Assembly (NCBI GenBank): GCA_913063225.1
Contig: CAJXYP010000017.1
Coordinates: 1-64,000, forward strand
DNA: 64,000 nt
Source: an uncultured Cellvibrionales bacterium
Lineage (GTDB): Bacteria; Pseudomonadota; Gammaproteobacteria; Pseudomonadales; GM7GCV1
Reading direction: 5' to 3'
Positions 1-741 of the stretch are shown here, one piece after another. The position numbers and the translations under genes are program-made. Positions within the stretch are counted from its first letter, which is position 1. Each line of letters opens with the position of its first letter. The notes under the pieces are model-generated. The model had not been told where the DNA came from. It worked only from the letters and a program-made list of their open reading frames with translations, and did no database searches.

Positions 1-64
1 AGCAGAAGACGGCATACGAGATCTAGTACGGTCTCGTGGGCTCGGAGATGTGTATAAGAGACAG
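1..64. other. Illumina Nextera P7 adapter with i7 index (library contaminant)
   Basis: agcagaagacggcatacgagat + 8-nt index ctagtacg + gtctcgtgggctcggagatgtgtataagagacag matches the Nextera P7/i7 adapter exactly. Minus-strand translation gives the artefact tail [12 protein letters not shown]. Confidence 0.99.
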
Positions 65-484
65 AGAGAACTCAACGTCGTCGCAAAGGCTTCGAGCCAG
101 CTTTACTGAATCTATCGCTCGCTCAAGTACTTTTTCCGGCTCCATTTGAAGCTTGTACTTCATATGAATTGGTGAGGTAGCGATAAAGGTATGAATGCGC
201 CCGGCATTGGCTCCAGCAATAGCTTCGCCCGCTCGATGAATATCTTTCTCTGTCGCCCGCGCTAGGCTGGCGATTCGGCTATCCATAATATTGTCGGCTA
301 CTAACTTGACCCCTTCGAAATCCCCAATGCTTGCAATAGCGAATCCAGCTTCGATTACATCAACCTTCAGCTTCTCCAATACCTTGGCCACACGAAGTTT
401 TTCGTCTTTAGTCATAGATGCGCCCGGACTTTGTTCGCCGTCGCGCAAGGTTGTATCAAATATAATTAATTTTTCTTTGTTCAT
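65..484 (-). CDS. leuA: 2-isopropylmalate synthase, N-terminal fragment truncated by contig end
   Basis: [30 protein letters not shown]...; HMGL-like domain start motif [15 protein letters not shown] runs into adapter. Confidence 0.93.
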
Positions 485-517: not shown

Positions 518-539
518 GCTCCCAGATCACAAAGGGAGC
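518..539 (-). promoter_or_regulatory. Hairpin in leuA leader, possible attenuator element
   Basis: gctccc N10 gggagc inverted repeat between the leader ORF and leuA. The GGAGC arm is also complementary to the Leu-codon run (GCTGCTCC). No clear U-tract. Confidence 0.4.
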
Positions 540-579
540 ACGGAATAGAATATATTTGAATGTATTTTAAGTATCTGCC

Positions 580-663
580 CTAAGGCAGGAGCAGCAAGGC
601 AAGAGCAAATCCGCCGCGAACGGGCGAAATCGTAGATAACTGAATGTTAGTAACAATGCTCAT
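580..663 (-). CDS. leuL: Putative leu leader peptide MSIVTNIQLSTISPVRGGFALALLLLP
   Basis: Manual minus-strand reading: ATG at 663-661, TAG at 582-580. Leu-rich end (CTT GCC TTG CTG CTC CTG) upstream of leuA, followed by hairpin-forming sequence. No strong SD seen. Confidence 0.6.
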   Translation of the reverse strand: MSIVTNIQLSTISPVRGGFALALLLLP

Positions 664-741
664 GTATGGAGATTTTACACAGAATGATTCATGTGTCTAG
701 CCACTTAAGACACATCTTTGCAGAGCTCTATCGAATAATAG

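Follow-up and report, generated by a model that had tools for sequence, protein, structure and literature searches.

A leucine-run leader peptide in front of leuA in a Cellvibrionales genome and a candidate leader type of Gammaproteobacteria

Does the short leucine-rich reading frame that precedes leuA in an uncultured Cellvibrionales bacterium encode a leader peptide, and how might such a peptide control the gene? The window, i.e. the whole stretch of 64,000 nucleotides analysed here, comes from a 2.26 Mb assembly. In it, the reading frame is flanked by a thioesterase gene, whose stop is at 742, and by leuA, which starts at 484. An earlier note, made from the letters alone, had proposed a probable attenuator, and its description of the locus was accurate: minus-strand positions 663-580 translate to MSIVTNIQLSTISPVRGGFALALLLLP and a stop exactly as given, a Leu-rich codon series precedes the stop (CTT GCC TTG CTG CTC CTG CCT TAG, 603-580), a hairpin GCTCCC-N10-GGGAGC lies at 539-518, the start of leuA is correctly placed, and both a Shine-Dalgarno (SD) sequence for the leader and a strong U-tract (GTTACTATTTGC) are missing. 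The features of the locus are as follows.

672 to 699, minus strand: sigma-70-like promoter of the leader, with -35 box TAGACA (699-694), 16-nt spacer and -10 box TAAAAT (677-672)
580 to 663, minus strand: leader ORF of 27 codons, MSIVTNIQLSTISPVRGGFALALLLLP and stop, without SD, probably leaderless
586 to 603, minus strand: regulatory Leu codons CTT GCC TTG CTG CTC CTG, adjoining the Pro-stop
575 to 588, minus strand: small hairpin CTGCC-TTAG-GGCAG, whose loop holds the stop codon
541 to 574, minus strand: G-poor spacer beyond the stop hairpin, where Rho might load
518 to 539, minus strand: hairpin GCTCCC-N10-GGGAGC followed by GTTACTATTT, weakly terminator-like
65 to 484, minus strand: leuA, 2-isopropylmalate synthase, first 140 codons, the remainder lying beyond the contig end

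The 140 codons of leuA match LeuA models (TIGR00973, E 1.4e-55), and the ORF breaks off at about position 64, where the contig end is occupied by a sequencing adapter (window 1-64; minus strand CTGTCTCTTATACACATCTCCGAGCCCACGAGAC-CGTACTAG-ATCTCGTATGCCGTCTTCTGCT), which we take to be a Nextera read-2 end with its index. The 19-base core of this adapter occurs 22 times in the genome, many times within 80 bases of a contig start. The adapter was left in the assembly and would give a false C-terminus to any annotated protein that runs into it.

The leader peptide and its probable leaderless start

The leader ORF is kept at 27 codons in both other species of the genus, ending in ...LLLLP or ...LFLLP and the stop. 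In the nearest relative (G002), whose leuA is 94% identical to that of the window, the leader reads MYRATTHFSLPTAPVLGGFALALLLLP and stop, and the promoter, ATG, reading frame, length, and Leu run are all shared; CTGCCTTAGGGCAGATACTT and GGGAGCGTTACTATTTGCAGC recur there unchanged, and of the five differences in the last 15 leader codons four are synonymous by inspection. The more distant congener (G001, leuA 87%) has MKTQVHNFSAPYRTAFAGLLLDLFLLP and stop, ending in ...AGLLLDLFLLP. Across the genus the N-terminal half of the peptide varies while length, Leu run, and promoter spacing stay constant. Since promoter, ATG, frame, length, and Leu run are all kept in the nearest relative and a 27-codon ORF with its Leu-rich ending in the second congener, the ORF is more than a chance reading frame. 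It has the sequence hallmarks of ribosome-mediated amino-acid leader peptides, being a short ORF rich in codons for the pathway product upstream of a biosynthetic gene, with ORF and regulatory codons conserved in relatives. The comparison of leuA upstream regions that the earlier note had recommended thus recovered a conserved short ORF with a Leu run, and the proposed Leu leader peptide was borne out by the congeners as well as by a motif in many gammaproteobacterial families (see below). On sequence grounds, a real, conserved leader peptide in front of leuA is well supported. In two other genomes of the same family (G003, G004), the sole LeuA homologue is a distant one (E about 1e-7 to 1e-9) and no close leuA was found; the gene may have been lost or replaced there, or be absent from the assembly.

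The predicted promoter matches the sigma-70 boxes at 10 of 12 positions and is the sole promoter-like site in 400-900, where shuffled sequence gives 0.6 per region. Its 3' end lies 8 nt upstream of the leader ATG, so that transcription would begin at the ATG itself or no more than a few bases from it. The congeners have the same arrangement (TAGACA-N16-TAGAAT-N7-ATG in G002, TATGAT-N7-ATG in G001), and all three species of the genus have a -10 box 5-8 nt upstream of the leader ATG. Among 43 leaders with a suitable in-frame ATG, 19 had a -10-like box 5-8 nt before it, compared with a frequency of 12.8% at control positions (p about 4e-7; where there were several ATGs, the best one was taken for leaders and controls alike), while an SD-like word preceded only six of the 43 leader starts vs 34 at leuA. 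The leaders with a -10-like box are mostly 27-32 codons long. The leader ORF is therefore probably translated leaderless, which would account for the absent SD; the earlier note was right about that absence, but what it had listed as a weak point would be explained by the probable mode of initiation.

Could the ORF be untranslated and conserved merely because of the hairpin or the promoter DNA? The missing SD would fit such a reading, as would the letters of the hairpin, which vary less than the peptide does. However, Leu is enriched at positions -3 to -7 before the stop (82, 61, 61, 43, and 39% in 28 non-redundant leaders, vs 0-25% further upstream) and all kinds of Leu codon are used there, leader length is similar in many lineages (about 27-30 codons), change in the congener is mostly synonymous, and the promoter is placed 5-8 nt before an ATG. 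We thus regard an untranslated ORF as very improbable.

Distribution of the leader type and its known counterparts

The recurring ending of these leaders consists of a Leu run, CTG, CCN, and the stop, followed by GGCA or GGGGCA. Scanning the upstream regions of 142 leuA genes with a strict rule (CTG-CCN-stop-GG) returned the motif in 35, most of them ending in Leu runs. Leu at -2 and Pro at -1 were selected for in the set of leaders from the order, which was chosen by CTG-CC-stop-GG, so the conservation of these letters and residues is by construction and proves nothing. A first covariance model, built from 13 motif sequences and run as a blind search of 195 genomes in the order, placed 13 of 14 matches at E<0.001 directly upstream of leuA, including six of six in genomes outside the model. 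A second model of 35 sequences was run against 185 genomes of the class; here 14 of 17 matches at E<0.001 preceded leuA, all from outside the training set and nearly all from different families, and the window leader was also recovered. A phylum-wide search gave two chance-level matches, neither with leuA. Weaker matches away from leuA (L164, L167-L169, L194, L195, L197, L223, L224) were rejected as they had no LeuA match; the few such weaker matches that were inspected lay inside coding sequence or resembled ordinary hairpins. Leu-rich leader ORFs of another build, ...SLLLTDLGLRLNSP and MSSIATSSLLLALLGTRRAR before the stop, were seen 100-112 nt before leuA in two MAGs titled Rhodospirillaceae (L105, L108) and in Ideonella (L106, L111).

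The second constant element is the small hairpin around the stop codon, whose 5' arm is formed by the last Leu codon and the CC of the Pro codon. In the relatives, 97.6% of its pair cells hold standard pairs, vs 26-63% when the partner is slid. The stem letters show no covariation among relatives, so we infer the fold from mirror sequence with loops of differing length. Three leaders (L188, L190, L196) have a loop without a stop codon, the stop following 9-12 nt later, immediately downstream of the hairpin; because these moved the stop and kept the hairpin, it is the hairpin and not the Pro-stop that is the conserved feature. Many leaders (e.g. L031, L041, L126, L132) also have a T-rich stretch (e.g. 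TCTATTATTCC) some 10-20 nt beyond the stop hairpin, followed by an A-run in several lineages; the polymerase might pause at this stretch, or a protein might bind it.

The build bears comparison with tnaC of the Escherichia coli tryptophanase operon, where the leader ends in Pro-stop, a Rho site follows directly, and the location of the ribosome determines whether Rho gains access. In tnaC it is free tryptophan that is sensed, by arrest of the nascent peptide, and a catabolic operon that is induced, whereas here a codon run stands before a biosynthetic gene. An analogous arrest, with the nascent ...LLP-stop peptide sensing free leucine and blocking its own release, would fit the Pro before the stop in all selected relatives, although this Pro was part of their selection. 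Against it, the three leaders with a displaced stop keep the hairpin, conservation does not extend to the part of the peptide ahead of the Leu run, and a release block at high leucine would switch on a biosynthetic gene just when it is not needed. We consider such arrest very improbable.

Leu-run leader ORFs before leuA are as such a known kind, found in enterobacteria, Epsilonproteobacteria, and Actinobacteria. Enterobacterial leuL (RF00512, Leu_leader) likewise is a short Leu-rich ORF just upstream of leuA; it has its Leu codons mid-peptide, an SD, and a strong intrinsic terminator downstream, while in the window-type leader the Leu run abuts the stop and both the SD and a general terminator are lacking. 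In Campylobacter jejuni, a 28-codon LeuL ORF with five C-terminal Leu codons precedes leuABCD, and its RNA ends shortly after the stop (PMC3847290). This epsilonproteobacterial LeuL resembles the window leader in its C-terminal Leu codons and its place upstream of leuA, but was found via an upstream ribosome-binding site, and the passages on it mention no hairpin at the stop codon (PMC3847290). The actinobacterial LEU element also comprises a Leu-run leader ORF before leuA, for which no terminator was reported and whose Leu codons were suggested to base-pair with the SD of leuA; the element is defined by a pseudoknot, and its authors think that a protein binds it (PMC1262725). Window-type leaders share the Leu-run ORF with it and may also share the SD pairing, which is weakly supported here. 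The mycobacterial polycysteine ORFs, reported to act as attenuators (Canestrari et al. 2020, as cited in PMC9031893 and PMC13236596), resemble the probably leaderless window leader in that they are short and leaderless and contain a codon run for the product of their pathway; they differ in the amino acid (cysteine), the phylum (Actinobacteria), and the genes controlled.

No Rfam family matched the window or the loci of 20 relatives at threshold. RF00512 did not reach its gathering threshold of 50 bits in the window genome (best 32.6 bits, elsewhere in the genome) and passed its cut-off in a control genome. Judging from these searches, the leader with a Leu run and a stop hairpin is a type found across many Gammaproteobacteria and not contained in Rfam. 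The gammaproteobacterial build was not found in the literature searched, which left most subscription journals outside its coverage, and the type may have been described elsewhere: there is reportedly a 2004 survey of proteobacterial attenuators, and a list of RNA motifs is said to name an ilvB leader of oligotrophic marine gammaproteobacteria.

From the Leu run to leuA: candidate outputs

The earlier note's attenuator contained two parts, a leader peptide, which stands with the conserved ORF and Leu run, and a structural switch, which folding does not bear out. The switch was drawn as mutually exclusive structures, with the GGGAGC arm of the hairpin at 539-518 pairing alternatively with the Leu run. 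In folding with simulated ribosome positions, that hairpin had a probability of 1.00 at every position and the alternative pairing 0.00. The polarity of the switch would also be wrong, as a stalled ribosome would remove the competitor of the terminator and thus lower leuA expression during starvation. A 2:3 antiterminator was tried and discarded (segment 2:3 pairing 0.00 in the window). The middle spacer was likewise discarded as a partner for the GGGCA arm or for the Leu run, since own pairs were no better than swapped ones.

A classical intrinsic attenuator, in which the hairpin at 539-518 would terminate transcription unless a ribosome stalled on the Leu codons allowed an alternative structure to replace it, draws its support from the genus: each of the three species has a hairpin at this site, followed in two of them by GTTACTATTT, and that of the window reaches -10.1 kcal/mol with 5 T in 9. 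The U-tract is weak, though, no competing structure was found with or without a stalled ribosome, and the hairpin has no general counterpart in other families. Terminator candidates downstream of the leader were no better than in shuffled sequence among the 28 relatives, many of which had no candidate at all. With no terminator shared by these relatives, classical intrinsic attenuation is not the shared mechanism; a weak hairpin confined to the genus takes the place of the conserved terminator of classical attenuators, and a ribosome-dependent antiterminator was not found. We consider intrinsic attenuation improbable as the explanation, while intrinsic termination may act in the window's genus. 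A second inverted repeat, CAGC-TAACG-GCTG, lies at 506-494 just before the leuA ribosome site, and G002 has GCAGC-ATTGG-GCTGC in its place.

Translational attenuation would instead have the Leu run pair with the leuA ribosome-binding region, so that a stalled ribosome frees leuA for translation. Along the leader, the Leu-run/stop region is indeed the strongest partner of the leuA SD region, own pairs beat swapped ones in the order set (p 0.004-0.02; 0.002-0.02 combined), and some relatives have 7-8 perfect pairs (L022, L041, G001). The class set alone was not significant, however (p 0.15-0.23), simulated stalling leaves the SD closed on average (p 0.75), the window's own pairing is no stronger than swapped pairing, and that of the nearest relative amounts to merely -6.3 kcal/mol. 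This output, too, seems unlikely.

The spacer points to a third output. Of the 28 relatives in the order set, 26 have more C than G in the first 50 nt beyond the stop hairpin (325 C, 155 G), compared with 54 of 97 decided leuA upstream regions lacking the motif (p 2e-4). The same bias appeared in 14 of 16 leaders of the class set, which is partly independent since its search model includes some of the spacer bases. A C-rich, G-poor, unstructured segment after the leader stop is thus present by composition, as expected where Rho loads, although the bias could also serve only to keep the spacer unpaired beside the C-rich Leu run.

We propose that RNA polymerase would start at or near the leader ATG and ribosomes would load on the 5'-terminal AUG, with the small stop hairpin possibly pausing the polymerase to keep it in step with the ribosome. 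Under a shortage of charged tRNA-Leu, the ribosome would stall on the Leu run just before the stop, shielding the stop hairpin and the first part of the G-poor spacer, and transcription would continue into leuA. With plentiful leucine, the ribosome would finish and leave, exposing the C-over-G spacer, and Rho would most likely end transcription before leuA. The parts of this proposal differ in strength. The conserved ORF, the Leu run, the promoter spacing, the stop hairpin, and the G-poor spacer are seen in the sequences themselves. Leucine sensing by ribosome stalling is very probable. Rho-dependent termination is a plausible output that we rank above the intrinsic and translational ones, yet would not ourselves wager on. 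For a leucine-sensing leader peptide controlling leuA along this whole course, we lean slightly in favour. That these leaders form an uncatalogued leuA leader class, leaderless, with a Leu run leading into a stop hairpin and a ribosome occluding a Rho site, is a tentative suggestion and rather doubtful in all its parts together.

Implications for leucine regulation

The textbook picture of amino-acid attenuation in Gammaproteobacteria is the enterobacterial one, i.e. an SD-led leader ORF, competing hairpins, and an intrinsic terminator. If the proposal is true, many marine and other gammaproteobacteria would regulate leucine synthesis by a leaderless leader peptide with no general terminator, and they would offer a natural system for leaderless translation and Rho control in Gram-negative bacteria. 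The search model (R2) lets annotators find such leader mini-genes, which fall below the usual ORF size cut-offs.
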